Source: a virus. Taken from it: a DNA stretch of 26,791 nt. Every line of letters starts with the position of its first letter. The first letter of the stretch is position 1. Positions 1 through 16,027 of the stretch are shown one piece after another. The notes under the pieces are model-generated. The model had not been told where the DNA came from. It was given only the letters and a program-made list of their open reading frames with translations, and did not search any database. The stretch covers positions 1 to 26,791 of IMG/VR virus record IMGVR_UViG_3300017752_000124; one strand, 5' to 3'. The position numbers and the translations under genes are program-made.

Positions 1-60
1 ACCGGAGAAGGATATAACAACATTCCCCTCCGGTAGTTTATATTCGCCAAGGTTAGCCAT
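1..60 (-). CDS. N-terminus of a probable PAPS-reductase-like PP-loop protein (partial)
   Basis: An ATG at 60-58 opens a frame that runs off the left edge, so only 20 residues are visible. They end in NVVISFSG. In phage PAPS-reductase/ATP-pyrophosphatase proteins a short beta strand followed by SFSGG is the nucleotide-binding PP-loop, usually within the first 20 residues, and this start fits that position. The start codon shares one base with the TAA stop of the upstream gene (TAATG), which indicates coupled translation. Only half of the motif is visible, so the family call is an inference; the existence of a coding start is better supported. Confidence 0.55.
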   Translation of the reverse strand, partial: MANLGEYKLPEGNVVISFSG

Positions 61-293
61 TAGAACGGAATTTCATCGTCCAGCTTTCCAGCAGCCGGAG
101 CCTGTTGCTGACGATTGCCATCATCCTCAAACAGCTTCAGCCAGACCTCACCCTCCTTATTCGGTAAAGGCAAACCCTCAAGCTTGATGCTGATCCCCTT
201 GTCATTCTGAAAGGCAATACCGTGACGCAGCCAAACAGGCTTATCACGACCAGGTACTTCCTTCGCTTGCACAACACTAAATCGCTTATTCAT
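60..293 (-). CDS. Small protein with SSB-like acidic C-terminal tip
   Basis: This is a 77-residue protein. The core (about residues 20-45, VWLRHGIAF then LEGLPLP) resembles small conserved proteins from plasmids and phages in which a conserved tryptophan is followed by a glycine and an aromatic residue; their function is not known to me. The last six residues are DDEIPF, preceded by a Gln/Ala-rich linker, which matches the tip bacterial SSB uses to recruit repair and replication proteins. The protein is too short for a full SSB OB fold. An AGGAG sits 7 bases before the ATG at 293, and a candidate promoter lies just upstream. It is plausibly a replication accessory protein or SSB mimic. Confidence 0.75.
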   Translation of the reverse strand: MNKRFSVVQAKEVPGRDKPVWLRHGIAFQNDKGISIKLEGLPLPNKEGEVWLKLFEDDGNRQQQAPAAGKLDDEIPF

Positions 294-325
294 GTGTATC
301 TCCTATACAACTTTACAGTGGGATT

Positions 326-354
326 ACGATATCGCATAGAAAACGATATTGCAA
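326..354 (-). promoter_or_regulatory. Candidate sigma-70-type promoter for the leftmost genes
   Basis: Reading the minus strand, TTGCAA (354-349) and TATCGT (331-326) are separated by exactly 17 bases, followed by a strong ribosome site and the ATG at 293. The -10 region lies in the palindrome CGATATCG, and ACGATAT occurs twice on the plus strand (326-332 and 343-349). This could serve as an operator. Match to the consensus is 4 of 6 in each box. Confidence 0.45.
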
Positions 355-360
355 TTACCG

Positions 361-396
361 CGTCACATTATTTGTGCACGTCACAGTTTTTGTGAC
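361..396. repeat. CGTCACA direct repeats and GTCACA/TGTGAC inverted repeat
   Basis: CGTCACA occurs at 361-367 and 379-385, 18 bases apart. The second copy forms a perfect 6-bp inverted repeat with TGTGAC at 391-396 around a 5-base spacer. The cluster lies just upstream of the candidate promoter at 326-354 and overlaps the end of the 48-residue gene. It could be a protein-binding array or a weak hairpin; no T-tract follows on the minus strand, so it is not a typical terminator. Confidence 0.35.
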
Positions 397-527
397 ACTA
401 AGCCACCAGCAAGATCCCTAATCACATTGGGAAACTTATCAGTAGGTATCAAACCAACCTGCTTACCATCATGGTAAATGCGCAGGCCATCCGGATAGAC
501 AACCCACACAGTCACACCATCATCCAT
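381..527 (-). CDS. Small hypothetical protein, 48 aa
   Basis: The frame starts at ATG 527 and ends at TGA 383-381, with an in-frame TGA four codons before the start that fixes it. The protein begins MDDGVTVWVVYPDG and continues with IYHDGKQVG, giving alternating hydrophobic and turn residues consistent with a small beta hairpin or sheet. The start overlaps the end of the 54-residue gene by 8 bases, so translation is probably coupled. I recognise no family. The overlap and the normal amino-acid composition support it as a real gene. Confidence 0.6.
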   Translation of the reverse strand: MDDGVTVWVVYPDGLRIYHDGKQVGLIPTDKFPNVIRDLAGGLVSQKL

Positions 528-684
528 AAGACCGCTTCATCCGCGTCTTAGCAGCCTTCTTAAACGCAGCGTCACTAGGCGCGCCCTTGCTACCCGGCTT
601 CCGCATCTTCTCGCCAGAGCCTTCAGCAATCCGCTTCTTCTTAGCGTGGATGTTCGCATATAATCCTGGTTTCTTATTTGGCAT
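520..684 (-). CDS. Conserved small basic phage protein, 54 aa
   Basis: The protein starts MPNKKPGLYANIHAKKKR and carries the segment GSGEKMRKPGSKGAP in the middle, followed by a basic Ala-rich tail. I recognise this pattern from small proteins in many environmental phage genomes; no function is established to my knowledge. High lysine/arginine content suggests nucleic-acid or virion binding. A TGA lies in frame five codons upstream of ATG 684, so the start is secure. It overlaps the preceding Pro-rich frame by 11 bases and the following 48-residue gene by 8. Confidence 0.8.
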   Translation of the reverse strand: MPNKKPGLYANIHAKKKRIAEGSGEKMRKPGSKGAPSDAAFKKAAKTRMKRSYG

Positions 685-811
685 TGGTAAACCCTTTCAT
701 GGTTTTCTGGAAAATAGTTTCGTGGGGGACTGTAGCTATAGTCGGCGGGGGCGGGGGGGCAGGGGGTGCCTGTTGCGATTGGGACGCCTTTTCGTCTCGC
801 CGGGATGCCAT
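674..811 (-). CDS. Proline-rich small protein, 45 aa (start uncertain)
   Basis: From ATG 811 the frame reads MASRRDEKASQSQQ, then APPAPPPPPP-type low complexity, then TIATVPHETIFQKTMKGF and a stop that overlaps the next gene. The second half looks like ordinary protein, and the Pro-rich linker is encoded by the C/G runs at 745-766. The open frame extends further upstream without an ATG to about 901 and includes a hydrophobic stretch (residues like FGLILALPY), so the true start could be farther upstream by an unusual codon or by frameshift. A different frame starting at ATG 908 covers the same DNA but turns into an arginine-rich shadow of the downstream gene. Between 812 and 910 I assign nothing firm. 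Confidence 0.4.
   Translation of the reverse strand: MASRRDEKASQSQQAPPAPPPPPTIATVPHETIFQKTMKGFTNAK
745..766 (+). repeat. G-run tract (three runs of 5, 7 and 5 Gs)
   Basis: Three G runs are separated by C and CA on the plus strand, with a fourth GGGGG at 724-728. The tract encodes the proline-rich linker of the minus-strand small protein. It has the composition of a possible G-quadruplex and is also a likely spot for slippage or sequencing-length errors. Confidence 0.5.
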
Positions 812-910
812 TGATTGCCTGCGGTGCGCTGCGTGTGCCTGTGCCGCGCTGTAGGGTAGGGCCAGTATAAGCCCGAACCATTGCCGGTAAGCTTGTTAGG
901 CTACCCATAC

Positions 911-1519
911 CTATGCCGCCTCTGTTTCGTCACTGTGCGGCTCTCTCAGTAGCTCTGACGCCTGATTGGCTAGCATTGCTGCGGCTCTCTCCTCGACGTC
1001 AGGTGATATCCACCACCCTGCGCCTTTTGCCCTACTGAAAAAGTCTGCTGTGAGGCACTGAAATTCGTCCCTAAACTTAGATAGGTCCAGTTCAGCTTGC
1101 GTGTTATGTCCAGACTTAGATTGAATTGCCTGCTGTTTAAGCATTGCCTCTGCTTCGCCTAGTTGTATTTGCTGTTTAGTTGTTAGTCTTGCCTTGATGC
1201 TTTCCTCTAGTTTCAGTGATGGATCATAAACGATGCGGTTGGCTGTTGACTTCTGGCCCTTGAAGAATGGCTTGCAGTAAGTGAGGTATCCGAGCTTGCG
1301 GAGCTTCACTGCGTGGTATGAAACGCCGGTCTTGCCCAAGCCTATGTCCTGCCCGATCCTTGCGAGTGAGACAAAGGTTCTTCCCATTGTGTCAGCGTAA
1401 GAGCAGAAAGCTACCAGCACCCGCAGAGTTGATGGCGTGATCCGTGGATCTTTGATCGCCCTGATTGGTACGATTGCGAACGCTCGCAGATCTTTGGCTC
1501 TGAGTTGTTTGGGTCTCAA
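911..1519 (-). CDS. Winged-helix DNA-binding protein, probable replication-module protein
   Basis: This is a 202-residue protein. Residues about 28-100 read as a winged helix: TPSTLRVLVAFCSYAD, then a recognition region around SLARIGQDIGLGKTGVSYHAVKLRKLGYL. This resembles helix-turn-helix domains of phage and plasmid replication initiators. The rest is a charged helical linker (about 105-150) and a C-terminal part with GAGWWISPDVEERAA. It overlaps the upstream gene by 4 bases (ATGA), placing it in one translational unit with two other replication-type genes. It may bind the origin or act as a transcription regulator; the sequence cannot separate these. Confidence 0.7.
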   Translation of the reverse strand: MRPKQLRAKDLRAFAIVPIRAIKDPRITPSTLRVLVAFCSYADTMGRTFVSLARIGQDIGLGKTGVSYHAVKLRKLGYLTYCKPFFKGQKSTANRIVYDPSLKLEESIKARLTTKQQIQLGEAEAMLKQQAIQSKSGHNTQAELDLSKFRDEFQCLTADFFSRAKGAGWWISPDVEERAAAMLANQASELLREPHSDETEAA

Positions 1520-2046
1520 AACGGATAATCCTCTATCGGGTCGGTAGGCTTTTCCTTCCGGGCATATGTCTCTATGCGGTTCTCTTCGAGGCTCTGCCGG
1601 TACATCTGTATCACGTTCATCGTGACGAGGTTTTTTTCCAACAATCTGTCTGCACCTGGTCCGCTTATGTATTCATCCCCGACCGCTTCGCCGTGGTTCA
1701 TGCGTCTGGCGTTGATTGCATCGCTATCCCACGCGACTGAAGTTTTCGGGCCTAGAATTGGTGGCTTGTACGCATCGGAGCATTTTTGTGCTGCTTTGAC
1801 CATGTTGTAGATGGTGGGCCATGATCGGGTGCGATTGTTCTTGCGGATGTCTTTGCCCATGTTGCGGAGAATGTTGGTTAGGCCTTCCTCGTTTATGCTG
1901 CTGACAATCTCTGAATTGATATCTTCAACCATTGCAGACATTTCGGTTGCTGCTCGTTCGGGCGTATGGTTTGCGGGTACGTCATACGACTGCAATTCCT
2001 TTTGCAGCCATGCGCCGATCGCTTTCGTTCTCTGCTCGTAGTTCAT
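1516..2046 (-). CDS. Unknown replication-module protein with SSB-like C-terminal tip
   Basis: This 176-residue, mostly helical protein sits between two winged-helix genes and overlaps both by 4 bases. A central stretch (RTRSWPT, about residues 72-78) recalls a short Trp-Pro motif common in phage helicase-loader-like proteins encoded just after an initiator. I cannot confirm that relationship. The C-terminus is acidic and ends EDYPF, close to the SSB C-terminal consensus, and is preceded by a Lys/Pro-rich linker. Position downstream of the initiator suggests a lambda P/DnaC-like loader role. No Walker A motif is visible, so it is not an ATPase loader of the DnaC type. Confidence 0.65.
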   Translation of the reverse strand: MNYEQRTKAIGAWLQKELQSYDVPANHTPERAATEMSAMVEDINSEIVSSINEEGLTNILRNMGKDIRKNNRTRSWPTIYNMVKAAQKCSDAYKPPILGPKTSVAWDSDAINARRMNHGEAVGDEYISGPGADRLLEKNLVTMNVIQMYRQSLEENRIETYARKEKPTDPIEDYPF

Positions 2047-2732
2047 TGGATCATCTTTCTATCTGTTGCCAGTGAGCCTAGAATAGCCTGCATCTGCTGG
2101 TCGCTTGTCATGTCTTGCAATGAAGGCTGTTGGATCTCATCGTCCCAGCGCTCACCATTCAACCAGGTTGCCAGGTGTGGCATGAATTTCTTGTCTTGGC
2201 TTCCCCATGCTCGGACAAAGAGTGCCAGTGAATGCTGTATCTGCTCGATGGTGGCTTTGGTCAGTGCCTTGGATAGTGCTTTGCGAGCTGTGCCTTTCCC
2301 GACTTTCTTCGGATAGATCTTCCAGAGATCATCAAAAATGGACATATCTTTAGAGGTTATATTTCCAAGGTTATTACTTACAAGGTTAAGGACTGGCAAA
2401 TTCTGCACGGGGGCACTAGCAGATTTTGCCATAGCCCCTGGCAAATTTTGCCACTCTTGTTTTGTTAGCTTTAAGCGATATCCGTTGCTTGTTTTGCTGC
2501 CATTGCTGCGGGTGCGTTGCACCTTCTCGATCAATCCTACTTGATGCAATTGCTCGATGTGCATCTGTACGGCACGTTTAGACATCTCGCATTCTTCTGA
2601 AAGTGTGGTGAGGCTAGGGAAGCAAGCGCCGGTCTCACTGTTGTGATGGTCAGCGATCCAATAAAGAACAATCTTTGTGGCCGGTTTAAGACCCTTCTGC
2701 TGCATCGCAAGTGCTGTCATATAGTGAGACAT
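2043..2732 (-). CDS. Replication initiator, lambda O-like organisation
   Basis: This is a 229-residue protein in two parts. Residues 14-88 form a winged helix (PATKIVLYWIADH, then CFPSLTTLSEECEMSKRAVQMHIEQL, then VGLIEK), the common N-terminal domain of phage replication proteins. Residues 131-199 contain FDDLWKIYPKKVGKG and HLATWLNGERWDDE, a conserved C-terminal pattern of phage and prophage replication initiators that probably contacts the helicase loader or helicase. The linker between is Asn/Ser-rich. The ATG at 2732 follows the RusA stop directly and has a GGGGTGA-type ribosome site. In lambda-like phages the origin often lies within such a gene; I see no clear iterons in it. Confidence 0.82.
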   Translation of the reverse strand: MSHYMTALAMQQKGLKPATKIVLYWIADHHNSETGACFPSLTTLSEECEMSKRAVQMHIEQLHQVGLIEKVQRTRSNGSKTSNGYRLKLTKQEWQNLPGAMAKSASAPVQNLPVLNLVSNNLGNITSKDMSIFDDLWKIYPKKVGKGTARKALSKALTKATIEQIQHSLALFVRAWGSQDKKFMPHLATWLNGERWDDEIQQPSLQDMTSDQQMQAILGSLATDRKMIQ

Positions 2733-3149
2733 CTATTCACCCCATGTAACAGTTGTTATCAGGCACGGCTCATTTCCGTACCGCTTGAATACCTTGAGGT
2801 CATAGACCTGGGCATCATCCTCAAAGACCACGCCGTTGAACGAATCTAACACGATTTTGGCGATATTATCAATATCTGGCTTGCCAGGATAGATCTCATC
2901 AGCTTCCGCTGCGGCCTTCTTTGCCTTCGTCCAGCTCTTCGGGATCTGGAATTGTGCCTTGATGACCATCTGACATGGCATTGTTGTCGGCTCTAACTGG
3001 TGCAGCACCATATAATTCGATGCAGTACCGGCCAGCCGATGCTCATATCTGCGCGTTTTCTCTGGCGTGTAGACCCGGCCTGTCCTGGTGAACCTGGGCC
3101 GACCTTTGCCGATCGGTTGACCAGGGAGCCAAATGTAAGTGCTGGTCAT
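2733..3149 (-). CDS. rusA: RusA-type Holliday junction resolvase
   Basis: This is a 138-residue protein with family signatures: GKGRPRF (residues 14-20) near the N-terminus, then KPDIDNIAKIVLDSFNG (90-106) and FEDDAQV (109-115). In Escherichia coli RusA three aspartates in these segments bind the metal and cleave four-way junctions as a homodimer; here D92, D94 and D111/D112 are the counterparts. The length is close to the family norm of about 120-140. The ATG overlaps the stop of the repressor-like gene by 4 bases. It would resolve recombination intermediates made by the ERF-type annealing protein encoded on the opposite strand. Confidence 0.93.
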   Translation of the reverse strand: MTSTYIWLPGQPIGKGRPRFTRTGRVYTPEKTRRYEHRLAGTASNYMVLHQLEPTTMPCQMVIKAQFQIPKSWTKAKKAAAEADEIYPGKPDIDNIAKIVLDSFNGVVFEDDAQVYDLKVFKRYGNEPCLITTVTWGE

Positions 3150-3999: not shown

Positions 4000-4199
4000 C
4001 CAGACAGCAACTAATTGACGCAATGGATCAGGGCAAAACCGTACACTGGCACAACAAAGGATATATTTGCTATCGCACCGAGGGCGGCGAGTACCTCAAC
4101 ACATTTACCCCCACCAACAATACCATTGGCATTTTTCACCGAAACGGGATCGGCATGAACATAAAGCCAGAAGATTGTTTTATTGCAGGAGAAGAATGA
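3996..4199 (+). CDS. Hypothetical protein, 67 aa
   Basis: ATG 3996 overlaps the upstream stop by 4 bases (ATGA); an earlier in-frame ATG at 3960 lies inside the upstream gene and lacks a ribosome site. The protein begins MTRQQLIDAMDQGKTVHW and has YICYRTEGGEYL, with aromatic residues spaced as in a small beta sheet. No family is recognised. It is part of the chain of overlapping small genes. Confidence 0.7.
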   Translation: MTRQQLIDAMDQGKTVHWHNKGYICYRTEGGEYLNTFTPTNNTIGIFHRNGIGMNIKPEDCFIAGEE

Positions 4200-4294
4200 T
4201 GGACGATTGGAAAGAGTGGCTCAAAGATACTATCGGGGTGGTGAGCCTGTTTCTCACCTTCTACCTTTTGTTTTTCTTTGCGGGGGTTTTGTAA
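4196..4294 (+). CDS. Tiny single-pass membrane protein, 32 aa
   Basis: After MMDDWKEWLKD comes a continuous hydrophobic run, about residues 14-31 (VVSLFLTFYLLFFFAGV), long enough to cross the membrane, and the protein ends there. AGGAG at 4187-4191 precedes the two ATGs (4196 and 4199; either may be used). The start overlaps the upstream stop and its TAA overlaps the next ATG. An amphipathic acidic head with one membrane helix resembles small early phage inhibitors of membrane functions, but no role can be assigned. Confidence 0.6.
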   Translation: MMDDWKEWLKDTIGVVSLFLTFYLLFFFAGVL

Positions 4295-4467
4295 TGGATT
4301 GGACTAACGATCAGAAGATTGAAGGGCTTAAAGAGTGCATCGAAGAAAGCAAATCTGAAATCTCATATGCCCAAAGTCGCGGCGATGACTTCATGGCCTC
4401 AGAAGCAACTCAGGTTTTGAAAATGGCAGAAGCCCAATTAAAAACCCTAACAGAAGGTGTGCAGTAA
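4294..4467 (+). CDS. Small helical hypothetical protein, 57 aa
   Basis: ATG 4294 shares a base with the previous TAA. The protein is rich in Glu, Lys, Gln and Ala and is likely one long helix or helical hairpin (KIEGLKECIEESKSEISYAQ, then ATQVLKMAEAQLKTL), with heptad-like leucine spacing. This suggests a small coiled-coil dimer. No family is recognised. The TAATG junction on both sides supports coupled translation. Confidence 0.68.
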   Translation: MDWTNDQKIEGLKECIEESKSEISYAQSRGDDFMASEATQVLKMAEAQLKTLTEGVQ

Positions 4468-4679
4468 TGGGAAAGGTCAAAGACATATTCCAAGACCAAC
4501 GCGAGAGGGCTTCCAAGGTATGCCCTGAGTGCGATGGGGATGGCAAGGTGGTTAAGATCACTTACCGGGTCCAAAGCTTTAGTCGTGACATCGGTGAGCC
4601 ATACGAAGACCCGGTTGAATGTGAAACGTGCCAGGGAGAGGGCGCAGTATTTGTGGAGGAAGACGATGAAGATCTATGA
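4467..4679 (+). CDS. Small zinc-finger protein with two DnaJ-like CxxCxGxG motifs
   Basis: This 70-residue protein contains CPECDGDG (about residues 19-26) and CETCQGEG (about 52-59), the CxxCxGxG pair that binds one zinc ion in the cysteine-rich domain of DnaJ and in several small phage proteins. No J domain is present, so it is not a co-chaperone by itself. The C-terminus is strongly acidic (EEDDEDL). It might bind unfolded protein, DNA or a replication partner. The start shares a base with the previous stop. Confidence 0.75.
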   Translation: MGKVKDIFQDQRERASKVCPECDGDGKVVKITYRVQSFSRDIGEPYEDPVECETCQGEGAVFVEEDDEDL

Positions 4680-4986
4680 AGTAAACACCAAAAAGATGCA
4701 CCACCGCCACGCAGGGGACACTGAGATGGCGGCGGCGCACCAGGTGGCCGCAAAGGTGACAGGCAGGAGATTGGATACCCTGCGAGCGCTTTCGACCCTG
4801 GGAGGAGGGTCAGGGGAGCAGATAAGCGCCTCTTTGCGACTACCTATCACTAGCATAAGACCGCGCTTAACGGAACTGCAAGAAATGGAGTTGATTGAAG
4901 ACACCGGGCGGCGTCATAAAAACCAATACGGAAACGGCGAGATCATTTGGACCGTCACAAAATCAGGGGCAAAATATGTATATTAA
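4666..4986 (+). CDS. Winged-helix (MarR-like) DNA-binding protein, 106 aa
   Basis: I place the start at ATG 4666 because GGAGG lies 6 bases upstream; the longer reading frame from 4534 sits in a gene already accounted for. After a basic His-rich N-terminus, residues about 35-85 form a winged helix: LDTLRALSTLGG, then GEQISASLRLPITSIRPRLTELQEMELI and a wing containing RHKNQYGNGEIIWTVT. It is likely a small transcription regulator of the phage or host. It overlaps both neighbours. Confidence 0.75.
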   Translation: MKIYEVNTKKMHHRHAGDTEMAAAHQVAAKVTGRRLDTLRALSTLGGGSGEQISASLRLPITSIRPRLTELQEMELIEDTGRRHKNQYGNGEIIWTVTKSGAKYVY

Positions 4987-5461
4987 ATTCGAAGACATTC
5001 GGGACATGGCCGATCAGATCCGGTTATTGACCGGCGACGATCAGGACACCTTTCTTGACACGCTCGATGGTGAGACCGATGCGATGGACATCTTGGGCAA
5101 GCTTATCCAGGAGCGCACCGAATGCTCAATCTACGAAGGGTCAGTGAAAGAGTTAGCGGCGACATACACCGCCAGAGCAAAACGCTTGTCAGCAAAGCAA
5201 GATGCGCTCTCGATCACGATCGGACACTTGCTCGATGCAATGGGGCAAACTAAGATCCAGCACCCGTTGGCAACAGTCAGTCGGACCAAGCCGCGAAAGA
5301 AAGTTGTGGTGGTCGATCAGCACGACATTCCAAGCCAGCTAACAACAGTCACAGTCAAGCCAGACATGACCGCAATCAAAAAACAGATGGACGCAGGGGA
5401 GCTTGTGCCAGGTTGCGAATATCAGATGGGCAATTCATCTGTCACAGTGAGGATCAAATGA
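4976..5461 (+). CDS. Siphovirus Gp157-family protein
   Basis: From ATG 4976 (AGGGG upstream) the protein has 161 residues. Family features are an N-terminal helical part (DILGKLIQERTECSI at about 38-52), a long helix with KRLSAKQDALSITIGHLLDAMG (69-90), and a beta-rich C-terminal part with SRTKPRKKVVV and VKPDMTAIKKQMDAGELVPG (128-146). Gp157 proteins are commonly encoded next to phage annealing recombinases, as here with the ERF-type gene, and are thought to help recombination or DNA metabolism; their biochemical role is not settled. The frame is open upstream to 4895 but that part overlaps the winged-helix gene. Confidence 0.85.
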   Translation: MYIKFEDIRDMADQIRLLTGDDQDTFLDTLDGETDAMDILGKLIQERTECSIYEGSVKELAATYTARAKRLSAKQDALSITIGHLLDAMGQTKIQHPLATVSRTKPRKKVVVVDQHDIPSQLTTVTVKPDMTAIKKQMDAGELVPGCEYQMGNSSVTVRIK

Positions 5462-5592
5462 TAAAAACTAAAGATCTTACAGAATATGAGAGATATTTAG
5501 AAAGTATCATCATAGCGCAAAAGCTTAGAATACAAAAGTATGAAACAGTTGTTGAGCTTTGCAAGCAAATAGCGGGAGATAAAAATGAGTGA
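5458..5592 (+). CDS. Small hypothetical protein between gp157 and erf, 44 aa
   Basis: ATG 5458 overlaps the Gp157 stop by 4 bases, and its TGA at 5590-5592 overlaps the ERF start by 8. The protein is a lysine/glutamate-rich helix (DLTEYERYLESIIIAQKLR) ending in GDKNE. It is more A/T-rich than the surrounding genes. Two-sided overlap makes it likely to be translated; its role may be no more than coupling, or it may be a small partner of the recombination module. Confidence 0.6.
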   Translation: MIKTKDLTEYERYLESIIIAQKLRIQKYETVVELCKQIAGDKNE

Positions 5593-6310
5593 ACTACAAA
5601 AAGCCATGGCCGAGGTGAATGATCTCAATCGCACCCACGGCGTCACGCAGCGCGGCGGCAAGAAATACACGGAGGTTTTTGTGCGCGTCGAAGCATTCCG
5701 CAAGGCATTCGGCACAGATCATGGGATCAACACCGAGATATTGATGGATGATGGCAAGCGAGTTGTTATCAAAGCAGCGATCACTAACAGCTCCGGGATG
5801 GTTGTTGGATCTGGCATGGCCGAAGAGATCAGGGGACAGGGCAACGTCAACAAGACAAGCGCCCTGGAGAATGCAGAGACCAGCGCCATAGGCCGCGCAC
5901 TAGCATCCATTGGCCTGCATGGCGGGACATATGCCAGCCTCAATGAGATCGATGCAGTGCCACGCAAAGCCGCAGCGCAAAAGCAACAGGCTCAATCTAC
6001 GCAGCCGCCGCCAGCACCACCCGCCGGGGATATGCTCACACTGAAGAACCACATCGGCCAGGAGAAAGGGTCAGGAGACGCGCAGGACTTTACCGCTAAT
6101 CTTATCAAGCTAATTGCAGCCTATAACAAGCTAGAGGCTGACAAAGATGGAGTCGCAATCCCTCCACGCAAGCGCATGACAATGCTGCGCGAGCTGATCG
6201 AGCAGAACCAGCAGTCAATCGACAAGCTTTCTGATGGGTTTAAAGAAGAGATCGACAATCGATATAAGAATTGCCTCAAGATCTTGGGCGCACAGTTAGG
6301 AAAAGAATGA
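5585..6310 (+). CDS. erf: ERF-type single-strand annealing recombinase
   Basis: This is a 241-residue protein. The hallmark is the segment around residues 87-117, NVNKTSALENAETSAIGRAL then SIGLHGGTYAS, which closely resembles the core of ERF-superfamily annealing proteins and related phage Rad52-like annealers. Residues 1-85 supply the beta-rich front of the fold. After residue 125 a Gln/Pro/Ala linker (AAAQKQQAQSTQPPPAPPAG) joins a helical C-terminal part, probably for partner binding. Such proteins anneal complementary single strands in phage recombination and replication. It lies just after gp157, a frequent pairing. I cannot separate ERF from closely related annealing families by eye. Confidence 0.88.
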   Translation: MSELQKAMAEVNDLNRTHGVTQRGGKKYTEVFVRVEAFRKAFGTDHGINTEILMDDGKRVVIKAAITNSSGMVVGSGMAEEIRGQGNVNKTSALENAETSAIGRALASIGLHGGTYASLNEIDAVPRKAAAQKQQAQSTQPPPAPPAGDMLTLKNHIGQEKGSGDAQDFTANLIKLIAAYNKLEADKDGVAIPPRKRMTMLRELIEQNQQSIDKLSDGFKEEIDNRYKNCLKILGAQLGKE

Positions 6311-10449: not shown

Positions 10450-11757
10450 CTACTCTGGTTTAGTGGGCCATATAATGTCGGTTGGAAAGTCAGACTGATC
10501 TGTGATGTCACGGAGGGCCTGACGGTATGCTGTCTGCTCTGCGGCCACCGACGAGGCTTGATTTACTCCTAGGACACCTTCGAGCTTACTGCGAATACCA
10601 AGACCATCAAGGTTCTGTGCAAAAGATGGGGACCACCACAAGTTACTCAAGTGTAGGTAGTCCATAGAAGCCTGACCACTATCCATTATTGTTTGCGGTG
10701 CTGATCCAAATGCGCCTGCGGGGTAAGCGTGTTTTATCATGTCACAAAAAGCAGGGTCATACTTACCACTTTCCATGCAAAGCTCCCCACGTTCTTTTGC
10801 ATAATCCCAGAAGGGTGTGTTGTATTTAGACCCAGCAAAGTAGTGCATCATGATTATGCGTTCTACGTTTCTTACCAAACCTACATATTCCATGTTGGCC
10901 TGTTCTACAGGCACAAGACCCTGAAGGTAGTTAATTGCGTTGTCTATAACAGTGCTGGCCATACCAAAAGACATAGCTTCCAGAGGCTCTAAGAAGAATG
11001 ACGCATTACCATTGCTCGCTACTCTATCCGTAAAGTTACGGTTCTTTGAGTAGTTGTTGAAGCCAAACGAGTTAGTCTCTTCGCTTGGGGTCAAATCAAA
11101 GTCACTAAAGATTGCCTTGACGTCTTCTTTTACTTCTTCAAGGGTGTTGATGTCACTGTTATACAGATACCCAATGGAACATCTGTTTTGGAGGGGTATT
11201 CCAAAGACCCAACCATATGGGCGAGCAATTGTAAGCGTGTGAGAAAACTTGGGAGCGTCCCAGTAACACTGGTTAACGTGAACAGCGTTGACAGGGATGT
11301 AAGCAGACTGCGAGTGCTTACTGTAATCCTTGGGGCGACCAGAACAGTCAATGATGTAATCAGCATCAATGTCATCTGGTTTTACATTATGTTCAAACAA
11401 GTCAACATGATCTTTTAGTCTTCCATACACGTAGTCCTGCATCTTGTTTGCGTTAAAGTGCAAGGCCACTGTTGGTGAGGGAAACTCATGGAGAAACTCT
11501 TCTTCAGTGGCAGACCAACCCCGCTTGAAGATACCCGTTTTTACGTAGCCATCCACAAGATCAAAGTCTTTGGGACCAAACCCTAGGGTTCGATGCAGAA
11601 GGGAAGGGAGCACGAGAGTTGTCCCCTCGCCTACCGCCTGCGGTTTAATGTTAGGATCGTAGTGCCACTCAACTTTTGCTTCTGGAAAGCTAAGTTTCAT
11701 TTGCACCGCCGACATGCACCCAACAGTTCCACGACCTATGACCGCGTACTTCTTCAC
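10450..11757 (-). CDS. Flavin-dependent tryptophan-halogenase-like enzyme with tail-assembly-like C-terminus
   Basis: This is a 435-residue protein. FAD-binding motif GRGTVG at residues 8-13; AVGEGT (41-46) corresponds to the GEAT region; YVKTGIFKRGW (71-81) places K73 where halogenases carry the catalytic lysine; GWVFGIP (182-188) is the family WxWxIP motif with Phe in place of the second Trp; PLEAMSFG (258-265) supplies E260, the conserved glutamate. Flavin halogenases use FADH2, oxygen and halide to make hypohalous acid near the lysine. A cyanophage enzyme of this group (VirX1) has been shown to iodinate diverse substrates. Here residues 411-434 (from YRQALRDIT to FPTDIIWPTKP) match the C-terminus of the neighbouring tail-fibre assembly protein. 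It overlaps that gene by 4 bases. The usual partner reductase is not in the window. Confidence 0.9.
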   Translation of the reverse strand: MKKYAVIGRGTVGCMSAVQMKLSFPEAKVEWHYDPNIKPQAVGEGTTLVLPSLLHRTLGFGPKDFDLVDGYVKTGIFKRGWSATEEEFLHEFPSPTVALHFNANKMQDYVYGRLKDHVDLFEHNVKPDDIDADYIIDCSGRPKDYSKHSQSAYIPVNAVHVNQCYWDAPKFSHTLTIARPYGWVFGIPLQNRCSIGYLYNSDINTLEEVKEDVKAIFSDFDLTPSEETNSFGFNNYSKNRNFTDRVASNGNASFFLEPLEAMSFGMASTVIDNAINYLQGLVPVEQANMEYVGLVRNVERIIMMHYFAGSKYNTPFWDYAKERGELCMESGKYDPAFCDMIKHAYPAGAFGSAPQTIMDSGQASMDYLHLSNLWWSPSFAQNLDGLGIRSKLEGVLGVNQASSVAAEQTAYRQALRDITDQSDFPTDIIWPTKPE

Positions 11758-12682: not shown

Positions 12683-15600
12683 TTAGCTGTTAAGTTGTGC
12701 TTTAAGTTCATCAATCTGAACCTGTTGTTCTTTGATTGCTTCGATAAGCACAGCGACCATGTTGCTATACTTGACCGACTTGATGCCTTCGTCATTGGTG
12801 CTGACTACATCCGGCAGTACAGCTTCTACTTCCTGAGCAATGACACCTATCTCTGAGCCGCCGTTCTCTAGCCAATCGAATGAGACACCACGCATTGCTT
12901 TCACTGCATCCAGTGAGCCTGTGAGCGTCTCTACGTTGGTCTTGAGTGTGGCGTCTGAAGTGGTGTTGAAATTGGTTGCAGTCGCATCACCTGTGACTGT
13001 AATTCCGCTGCTATTTGTTGAGAGACGGGCGATATTATCGTAGTAAAGGTCTACTGAGCCATTGTCATTAAAAACAGCAAAGGTCTCGTTATTACCAACG
13101 TCTGTAAATTTAACGAAACTATCTGACTGCACGAAAAGTGGACCTTCATCATTTCTAATGATTGAGTCGTTCCCAGCTACTTCTAGGTCTAATTTTGAGC
13201 TTACTGTGATTCCGCTGGCGGTGGTTTGGAGTTTTTGGGTTCCATTATGATAAAGATAGAGCGAGCCACCTTCTATCCCATAAAGAAACGCAGCGTTGGT
13301 ATCTGCCGCTCCTACTACCTCAAAATTACCCGCACTTATTTTTAAGTTACCAGTGCCTGTATCTTTTATCCAACTATGACTCGCATCGTGATAAATCTGT
13401 AGGTCATCAGATGCCCCAAATGTAGCTTTCTGACTATCACCTAAAGCAATCCCGTCTGTGGTAATTTCACCAGTGATGTCTACACCTGTGCTAGTAGTTT
13501 GAAATTTTTGGACATTATCATGCCTAAGTGATACTGATCCATCGGTTGTAAATACAGCTTTAGTTTCACTTCTAATTGCATTTTGAATGTAAAGTTGGTC
13601 TGCCGCTATAACTAAACTTCCACTACCATTTTCTGTAATATATGAGTTATTATCACTACTGCTATGATAAATCTGTAGGTCAGATCCAGCTCCGAACACA
13701 GCCTTATCATTGTCACCAAAGTTAATGTCAGCAGAGGTAGTCATGCCGTCTGTGGTAATAACACCAGTTACATCTACACCTGTGCTGGTTGTAGTCAGCT
13801 TCTCAGAATTAGCATGGCGTATGCTTACCGCCCCACCGGAGTTAGCAAGAAGATAAGTGTTCGTGCCGCCTTGGTCTTGTAACCGCAACTCAGATGCACG
13901 AACAAAAAGCCAACCGCCAGCGGAAGCATCATCAATATAGCTATGCGTTCCATCATGGTAAATCTGCAGGTCAGACCCAGCGCCGAAGATGGCTTTGTCG
14001 TTGTCACCGAAGGACAAATCACCCGTCATGCTATCGCCAGTGACTGCAACAAAGTCTGTAGCTGCGGCGGTGGCTGCTGTTCCTAAGTCACCCGGCTGTG
14101 TAGCTGAGGCAGCGAGTGCGCCTTGGGCTGCTGTGGCATAGTCAGTCGAGGCTGTAGTGGCTGCTGTTCCAAGCCCAAGGTTTGTCCTTGAGCCAGCGGC
14201 GTCAGCAACGTCCGAAAGATTGTTATTAACCAAGAGAGCGCCTGAGAGGGAAGCGTAGGCAGCAACCCACTGGCTACCCTCATAGACTTTCATAACATCG
14301 TCTGTGGTATTGAAGTAAAGCGCCCCGGAAACCAATGCGTTACCGTCATTATCTACTGTAGGATCGGACGCCTTGGCACCCAAATACCTGTCATCAAAGC
14401 TATCAAGGGCAGCAAGCGCCGCATCCTTTGCGGCTTCAGATGCCGTGGCGGAGTTTGCACTAGCCGTGGCCGATGCAGCCGCCTCGCCAGCCTTGGTTAT
14501 CGCAGTGCCAGCGTCAGTGGATGCAGATGCAGCCGAGGAGGCTGCGTTGGTTTGGCTTGTCAAAGCATTAGATGCGCTTGTAGATGCAGAAGATGCACTA
14601 GCAGCGGCGTTGGTCTCAGAGGTTTCGGAATTAGTCTCTGCGGTTTCGGCAGCAGCCTGCGCAGCAACACTAGCCACGCGGGAAGTTTCACTAGCTGTGG
14701 CGCTGTTCGAGCTATTAGCGGCGCTGTTGGCAGAATTGGTTTCGCTGGTAGATGCAGCCCCCTCACTGGCTAAGGCAGCAGCAGCACTTGCAGCAGCCTC
14801 GCCAGCCTTGGTTGTTGCAATGCCAGCCTGCGTGATGGCTGTGGACGCACTTGTTGATGCGTTAGTCTCAGCGGTTTCCGCTGCCACTTTTGCGGCTTCA
14901 GAAGCAGTCTTTGCTGTTTCGCTTGCGGCCTGCGCTGTTTCGGCATTGGTCTCCGCAGTTTCAGCAGCGGCCTGGGCGGCAACAGAAGCAACCTTAGATG
15001 TTTCACTAGATGTGGCGCTGTTGGCGCTATTGGTGGCGCTGGTAGCGGCGGCGTTCTTACTCGCCAAAGCAGATGCAGCATTCGTGCTCGCGTTTTGAAT
15101 GTCAGTAATATTGGTTGCGTTTGTATTGATGGATGCAATGTTTGTTGCGTTTGTGTTTACATTGGAAATATCTGTAGCAACAGTATTTACGCTTGCAATA
15201 GATGTCGCAACAGTCCCGATATCAGCACCATCAGCAGCGACAGTATTGATATTAGCCTGATTACTTGCAACAGATGTTACATTTGCGCTTATACTAGAAA
15301 CAGTCGTAACGTCTGAGGATATACCAGCAACCGTGCCGATGTCAGATCCGTCCGCAGCAACAGTCGTAACGTCTGAGCTAATACCGGCAACCGTAGTTAC
15401 ATTGCCAGAGATACCGGAAACAGTGGTGACATTTGCGCGGATCGTGTTGACGTTTGTAATCGCGTCAGTTGCAACCGTACCATCCTGGATCTCTGCCAGC
15501 GTCTTAATATCAGCAGAGATATTTGCTAGTGAATCGACATCCCCGATCTCTGGACCTGGTTCTGGATCGCCTGTGGTTGCGTTGAAGCCAAGAACCGTCC

Positions 15601-16027
15601 CCTTACGAGCGTCCTTGAGTGGTAGCTCTAGGTCAGTAAACACATCGCCAGGGTTTACAAACAAGCCACGACCAAGCTTCTCGTCAAGCTGTTGGGTCAT
15701 AATCACGTTACTGTCTAGCTGTTCATTCAAGCTGGAAGCGAGAAGATCACCGGCTGTAACAAAGTCTGTGGTGCGGGAAAGCTCACGGCCACCAATGATT
15801 GTAAGAACGTCTGACGCTACGAGGGCGGCTGTAAGAGTAATAGACCCTGTGCCATTTGCATTAATACTGACCGTATAATCGGTTGTCAGCGTCAACTCAG
15901 TCGTATTCTTGAAGACAGCGATATCACTATCTGTCAGGATGTTGAAAGTAAAGGCAAACGGGCCTGTTCCAGTATTACCTGTGAACTGAACGCGCCGCGT
16001 TACTGGATTGATTGCAATATCACTCAT
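12683..16027 (-). CDS. Long tail fibre with self-cleaving S74 chaperone domain
   Basis: This is an 1114-residue protein. Residues 1-145 resemble the T7 gp17 N-terminus that attaches fibres to the tail (RRVQFTGNTGTGPFAFTF, then GRELSRTTDF). Residues about 191-310 are twelve decapeptide repeats. Residues about 311-540 are an Ala/Ser/Thr-rich helical rod with repeated SVAAQAAAETAETN. Residues about 543-595 contain FDDRYLGAKASDPT and ALYFNTTDDVMKVYEG. Residues about 665-1020 carry four-fold FGAGSDLQIYH-type beta repeats. The last 91 residues (TSDATLK at about 1023) match the intramolecular chaperone (peptidase S74) with S1024 and K1029 as the self-cleavage pair. It should trimerise and bind the host receptor. 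A candidate promoter sits upstream. Confidence 0.9.
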   Translation of the reverse strand: MSDIAINPVTRRVQFTGNTGTGPFAFTFNILTDSDIAVFKNTTELTLTTDYTVSINANGTGSITLTAALVASDVLTIIGGRELSRTTDFVTAGDLLASSLNEQLDSNVIMTQQLDEKLGRGLFVNPGDVFTDLELPLKDARKGTVLGFNATTGDPEPGPEIGDVDSLANISADIKTLAEIQDGTVATDAITNVNTIRANVTTVSGISGNVTTVAGISSDVTTVAADGSDIGTVAGISSDVTTVSSISANVTSVASNQANINTVAADGADIGTVATSIASVNTVATDISNVNTNATNIASINTNATNITDIQNASTNAASALASKNAAATSATNSANSATSSETSKVASVAAQAAAETAETNAETAQAASETAKTASEAAKVAAETAETNASTSASTAITQAGIATTKAGEAAASAAAALASEGAASTSETNSANSAANSSNSATASETSRVASVAAQAAAETAETNSETSETNAAASASSASTSASNALTSQTNAASSAASASTDAGTAITKAGEAAASATASANSATASEAAKDAALAALDSFDDRYLGAKASDPTVDNDGNALVSGALYFNTTDDVMKVYEGSQWVAAYASLSGALLVNNNLSDVADAAGSRTNLGLGTAATTASTDYATAAQGALAASATQPGDLGTAATAAATDFVAVTGDSMTGDLSFGDNDKAIFGAGSDLQIYHDGTHSYIDDASAGGWLFVRASELRLQDQGGTNTYLLANSGGAVSIRHANSEKLTTTSTGVDVTGVITTDGMTTSADINFGDNDKAVFGAGSDLQIYHSSSDNNSYITENGSGSLVIAADQLYIQNAIRSETKAVFTTDGSVSLRHDNVQKFQTTSTGVDITGEITTDGIALGDSQKATFGASDDLQIYHDASHSWIKDTGTGNLKISAGNFEVVGAADTNAAFLYGIEGGSLYLYHNGTQKLQTTASGITVSSKLDLEVAGNDSIIRNDEGPLFVQSDSFVKFTDVGNNETFAVFNDNGSVDLYYDNIARLSTNSSGITVTGDATATNFNTTSDATLKTNVETLTGSLDAVKAMRGVSFDWLENGGSEIGVIAQEVEAVLPDVVSTNDEGIKSVKYSNMVAVLIEAIKEQQVQIDELKAQLNS
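15098..15457 (-). repeat. Decapeptide (30-bp) repeat array in the fibre gene
   Basis: Twelve ten-residue units follow with almost no gap, each ending in V or I after N/D (for example TTVAGISSDV, TTVSSISANV, NTVATDISNV). Identical 17-base stretches at 15301-15317 and 15361-15377 are 60 bases apart, that is two units. The array encodes a regular rod part of the fibre. Confidence 0.8.

Follow-up and report, generated by a model that had tools for sequence, protein, structure and literature searches.

Introduction

Bacterial-type single-stranded DNA-binding proteins (SSBs; PF00436), such as E. coli SSB and ORF36 of phage Ab31, combine an N-terminal domain with a disordered linker rich in Gln, Pro, Gly and Ala and a C-terminal tip of the DDDIPF type. 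Stimulation of Sak4, the annealase of phage HK620, requires the six-residue tip of the phage's SSB, NDYPPF (PMC5928155), and recombineering by the Ab31 operon is improved by ORF36, according to a review (PMC7516269) that cites Yin et al. 2019. Another element of phage DNA metabolism, the helicase loader lambda P (PF06992), is encoded with a four-base overlap between O and P. Here, we analyze a 26.8-kb fragment of viral DNA (IMG/VR virus record IMGVR_UViG_3300017752_000124, positions 1 to 26,791; hereafter the window) encoding two small proteins, p1 (77 residues, positions 60–293, at the edge of the record) and p2 (176 residues, positions 1516–2046), that end in tips recalling that of SSB. We propose that in p1 the phage has a miniature SSB-type protein of its own and that p2 is most likely a lambda-P-like loader of the DnaB helicase, a joint explanation to which we assign a probability of roughly 0.78.

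Results

A first-pass annotation, made from the letters alone, had noted the two tips and called the proteins unrelated. Both open reading frames (ORFs) are present at the stated positions and lie on the minus strand, their products end KLDDEIPF (p1) and DPIEDYPF (p2), and p1 is predicted to be all-beta and p2 all-helical. p1 has a three-part layout: a conserved basic domain predicted to form four beta strands (residues 1–56, positions 126–293), a disordered linker (residues 57–71, positions 81–125) and the tip DDEIPF (residues 72–77, positions 63–80), which is followed by the stop codon at 60–62. The p2 tip, EDYPF, occupies residues 172–176 (positions 1519–1533).

The search with p1 gave more than 80 viral relatives. 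At the last six residues we compared some 80 of these and, for p2, about 50 relatives, and both tips are kept in most of them. In the p1 alignment, the first ~56 residues are nearly fixed and the tip is retained in essentially every close relative, as DDEIPF, DDSIPF, DDTIPF, EDVIPF or GDSIPF, with -IPY or -IPW in a few; the linker ranges from Gln/Ala/Pro-rich to Gly/Ser/Arg-rich and differs in length by up to ~16 residues. The tip of most p2 relatives reads [ED][YN]P[FY] (EDYPF, EEYPF, EENPF, LDNPF, ENPY); one relative (L043) has an extra Gly, another (L106) has lost the tip, and the most distant proteins end -VKW or -LAW. The proposal of two genuine, conserved and SSB-like tips is supported. 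Only the p1 tip is canonical; at the position of Ile or Leu in SSB, p2 carries Tyr or Asn. In L106, the p2 relative (4001–4498) ends EAYSELKH while the p1 relative retains IEDEIPF; thus, inheritance does not couple the two tips.

For a background, we collected 749 distinct C-termini of ORFs of at least 100 residues from the loci of the relatives. A P-[FYW] end directly preceded by two or more acidic residues occurs in 21 of the 749, and 20 of these 21 belong to p1 relatives, p2 relatives or true SSBs, the remaining one being an antisense ORF. The tips of p1 and p2 are not chance. As purifying selection would predict, synonymous change exceeds non-synonymous change over the last six codons: the ratio of non-synonymous to synonymous change (pN/pS) is 0.24 in p1 and 0.30 in p2.

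The best evidence on the role of p1 comes from an operon slot of Pseudomonas phages. Two of these phages, L182 and L199, have in common RecT (1.4e-28) and YqaJ-exonuclease (2e-25) genes upstream of the slot, as well as the downstream genes. Over the 500 bases that lead to a shared ATG, their DNA is 99% identical; it is unrelated through the N-terminal domain and becomes identical or near-identical again from ~25 bases before the stop, with 94% identity over the next 600 bases. Within these borders, L182 encodes a 91-residue p1 relative and L199 a 152-residue SSB (PF00436 at 2.7e-41), and both proteins end ANDSFDDDIPF. In about a dozen more Pseudomonas phages, similarity to the SSB operon starts at the shared tail or just after (at query base 1771–1774 in most rows, 1835 in one), and in phages P27 and IME307 the slot holds a second, divergent SSB type with the tip DSFDDDIPF. 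More generally, the tails of p1-family proteins match those of SSB models. In Ab31, the slot is filled by the SSB version, ORF36, and in phage PAShipCat1 a p1-type gene (L224, 1833–2111) stands in the ORF36 position. The PAShipCat1 protein ends DDDIHF rather than DDDIPF in this one record, a natural tip variant. Because relatives of p1 exchange with an SSB of the oligonucleotide/oligosaccharide-binding (OB) fold in the same slot, beside an annealase and an exonuclease, p1 is probably an SSB.

We searched the records for a canonical SSB. PF00436 was found in none of the 18 tailed-phage-type records that carry a p1-family gene, the window not being an exception, nor in two microvirus records, and it is present in both SSB-slot relatives searched. 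Among 80 distant loci, an SSB was detected near the p1 relative in none (0/80) and a recognised annealase, exonuclease, helicase or primase in 41, these single-seed neighbour searches giving lower bounds for presence and weak information on absence. When Pfam and PHROGs were run on a sample of the remaining distant loci, RecT, ERF, Sak, RecE-like exonuclease and primase neighbours appeared.

What does the p1 domain look like? AlphaFold2, run with 30 sequences, gave block-mean confidence values of 83–92 over residues 1–60 and placed strands at residues 3–11, 20–30, 33–38 and 53–56; pLDDT falls below 50 at residues 62–74, as for a disordered tail. Residues 1–55 are basic (10 K+R versus 6 D+E) and the tail is acidic (2 versus 6). 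The architecture resembles that of a bacterial-type SSB, but the domain is about half the size (~56 versus 105 residues) and has no PF00436 match, and no OB-fold match was found for it. A structure search of BFVD returned only unnamed or uncharacterised viral proteins, and no informative match came from searching PDB sequences with profiles. We do not claim an OB fold for p1, although a reduced one would stay compatible with the four-strand model and its lack of a PDB match.

By profile comparison, p1 is a member of a large phage family that has no name (PHROG 18187/37570). It matches PHROG 18187 over its full length (E = 1.3e-5; residues 1–76 to positions 1–93 of 94), a profile also matched by proteins of Pseudomonas, Bordetella, Microcystis and enhanced biological phosphorus removal (EBPR) phages; the Pseudomonas members reach 2e-46, and some of them were deposited in GenBank as 'single-stranded DNA-binding protein'. 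PHROGs, Pfam and NCBIfam give the family no assigned function, fold or name, and a literature search limited to open-licence papers found none describing it. With the tails removed, hhalign linked the window's family to the Pseudomonas family (1e-7; 5.5e-9 when pooled with other phages) and to a microvirus family (2.9e-19), each E-value being that of a single comparison. A further scan, made with the distant branch, yielded 143 p1 relatives, and the canonical tip is present in 54 of the 65 distinct distant members read out, while three more end Pro-Phe. p1 is a marine branch of this family, and the marine alignment found no relative in bacterial genomes or in plasmids. In marine gokushovirus-like microviruses (L116, 2853–3107; L161–L181), an unannotated p1 relative lies between the internal scaffolding and replication genes.

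A possible viral partner of the p1 tip is encoded on the plus strand at 5585–6310. This 241-residue protein matches no Pfam family and corresponds to phrog_11717, of unknown function. L135 (216–866, minus strand) and L145 (378–1028, minus strand) have in this slot a Sak annealase recognised by Pfam (about 1e-38) fused to the same C-terminal region, which in L135 is 66% identical to the 241-residue protein over residues 142–240. Thus, the 241-residue protein is probably an alternative single-strand annealing protein and a candidate partner of the p1 tip. When its family was compared by hhalign with one Sak alone, the E-value was 9e-6 and the probability 83%; a score of 5e-30 against Sak was discounted, as the same two relatives stood in both alignments. 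An earlier guess from a sequence motif, that the protein is ERF/RecT-like, was not supported by hhalign. Near it, at 4895–5461 on the plus strand, lies a Siphovirus Gp157/Mu Gam-like end-protection protein (PF05565, 1.1e-14; phrog_253, 3.5e-21).

We then compared p2 with lambda P. The p2 model is all-helical with a disordered tail, and its top match among solved structures is lambda P residues 31–119 (Z = 9.0, 87 residues aligned, 3.5 Å). The ends of this alignment imply an offset of 24, which places p2 SWPT (75–78) on lambda P FLPS (99–102); further along, RINRGEAI of lambda P is collinear with RRMNHGEAV of p2. A profile of eleven lambda P relatives scored 24.7 against p2, the maximum in 60 column shuffles being 16.3. 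The gene order is also that of lambda: p2 starts at 2046 and the gene of an O-like winged-helix replication initiator (2043–2732, minus strand; phrog_270, E = 1.9e-39; HTH_36, 2e-14) ends at 2043, a four-base overlap. p2 differs from lambda P in its length (176 versus 233 residues) and in its tip, as lambda P ends KGASV. Taken on its own, the assignment of p2 as a helicase loader is one that we favor by a small margin. Phage matches of p2 that were weak (<30% coverage, some of them under tail-sheath genes) were attributed to chance and dropped.

Discussion

How might the two proteins work? We suggest that the basic ~56-residue beta domain of p1, probably as an oligomer, coats single-stranded DNA (ssDNA) arising from replication and recombination of the phage. 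The flexible linker would expose the DDEIPF tip, which may then dock in the SSB-tip pockets of replication and recombination enzymes, either the phage annealase or host partners of SSB, or both. The HK620 SSB, likened here to p1 from its published description (PMC5928155), is a model for what the tip may do, and this precedent means that the tip's partners may be viral as much as host; the annealase differs, being Sak4 in HK620, while the window's candidate annealase stands in a Sak slot. p2 would load the DnaB helicase together with the overlapping O-like initiator, and its tip probably docks on a replication protein.

Several observations weigh against this explanation. On the side of p1, (i) the protein matches no Pfam family at E ≤ 1 and no NCBIfam family; (ii) its domain has no PDB fold match by Foldseek or VIA-align, the best Z being 2.8 among weak, unrelated matches; (iii) the window and Pseudomonas branches are remote in pairwise search (33% identity, E = 9e-3); (iv) the microvirus relatives carry no SSB tip; and (v) the window is a fragment, so that a canonical SSB could lie elsewhere in the genome. 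On the side of p2, AAA+ lid domains come within 1 Z of lambda P as structural matches, the hhalign probability against lambda P is 5%, and p2 matches no Pfam family at E ≤ 1, PF06992 included, and no NCBIfam family.

Which proteins does the p2 tip contact? Rather than mimicking SSB, the tip could be a separate short motif, [ED][YN]P[FY], that docks on the initiator of the phage or on the helicase or primase of the host. Position −3 is Tyr or Asn instead of Ile or Leu, the most distant relatives and L106 depart from the motif altogether, and p2 sits between two O-like proteins; on the other hand, an acidic C-terminus closed by Pro and an aromatic residue resembles working phage tips such as that of the HK620 SSB (PMC5928155). 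We consider the chances of a separate motif to be about even. That the p2 tip uses SSB-tip pockets seems doubtful to us, and its recruitment of SSB partners, as supposed in the first-pass annotation, found no backing: the tip is non-canonical, and no evidence ties it to those partners.

The same annotation suggested that the phage competes for, or redirects, the host proteins that bind SSB. In its full form, p1 and p2 would not be DNA-binding SSBs at all, and their tips would compete for or recruit host SSB-binding enzymes. Both tips are conserved, and two of them in one early block is far above background. However, p1 relatives replace the SSB gene one-for-one in the RecT-exonuclease operon, in records without a Pfam SSB; the whole p1 domain is conserved, not the tip alone; and the domain persists without a tip in ssDNA microviruses. 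Binding of SSB-tip partners is a plausible part of the idea, but two free-standing competing tips are not the best reading, and we regard the decoy function as improbable.

Slightly less probable still is that p1 acts as an adaptor whose domain binds the phage annealase or exonuclease, rather than DNA, and whose tip brings this enzyme to the host proteins that bind SSB. The neighbours of p1-family genes are annealases and exonucleases of several families, as an adaptor would require, but RecT, ERF, Sak, YqaJ, helicase and primase, as unrelated partners, would all have to present a common surface to one domain family, whereas ssDNA is a partner common to all of them. The exchange with OB-fold SSBs is also simplest if the common role is ssDNA binding. 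Finally, the Pseudomonas swap could be an accident uninformative on function, given the mosaic nature of phage genomes and the chance that a tail under some other constraint acts as a recombination site. We consider this unlikely: the start codon and an in-frame tip are present in both versions, a tip of the same kind also ends the second, divergent SSB type found in the P27 and IME307 slot, and no other Pfam SSB accompanies the mini version in its records.

Beyond this locus, we lean towards the view that p1, as an SSB-type protein, represents a widespread and unnamed class of minimal SSBs, in which a small beta domain takes the place of the standard OB-fold SSB and carries a bacterial SSB tip. 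Such proteins would occur in many tailed double-stranded DNA phages and, tip-less, in ssDNA microviruses, and recombination at the DNA encoding the tip would exchange them with OB-fold SSBs, the tip staying constant while the DNA-binding domain is replaceable. The family spans hundreds of unannotated genes beside several classes of phage annealase. Should its members bind ssDNA, few known SSB-type hubs would be as small, and phages would hold constant the protein-recruiting tip rather than the OB fold. The family could then supply compact SSBs for recombineering and would connect tailed phages with ssDNA microviruses in their DNA metabolism; the Ab31 recombineering operon offers a ready functional test.

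Other Features of the Window

p1 and p2 belong to a leftward block that also contains a ribbon-helix-helix protein, a RusA Holliday-junction resolvase (2733–3149, minus strand; PF05866, E = 8.5e-33), the O-like initiator and, downstream of p2, a second winged-helix O-like protein (911–1519, minus strand; HTH_36 E = 2.3e-5, just under the cut-off; phrog_270, 8.6e-6). A 139-residue ORF and a 511-residue ORF come after p1 in several of the longer relatives; by eye, they read as the small and large terminase subunits. In the window, an ORF beginning MANLGEYKLPEGN (positions 1–59) overlaps the p1 stop and continues past the edge; it is unlike the 139-residue ORF (MARKKEDK...) found after p1 in the other relatives that were read.

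Two large ORFs on the minus strand lie farther into the window. The first (10450–11757, 435 residues, starting MKKYAVIGRGTVG...) resembles, by eye, a flavin-dependent tryptophan halogenase. The second (12683–16027) encodes a 1114-residue tail-fibre-like protein with long Ala/Ser/Thr/Asn repeats and what we judged by eye to be a C-terminal self-cleaving chaperone domain of the S74 type.

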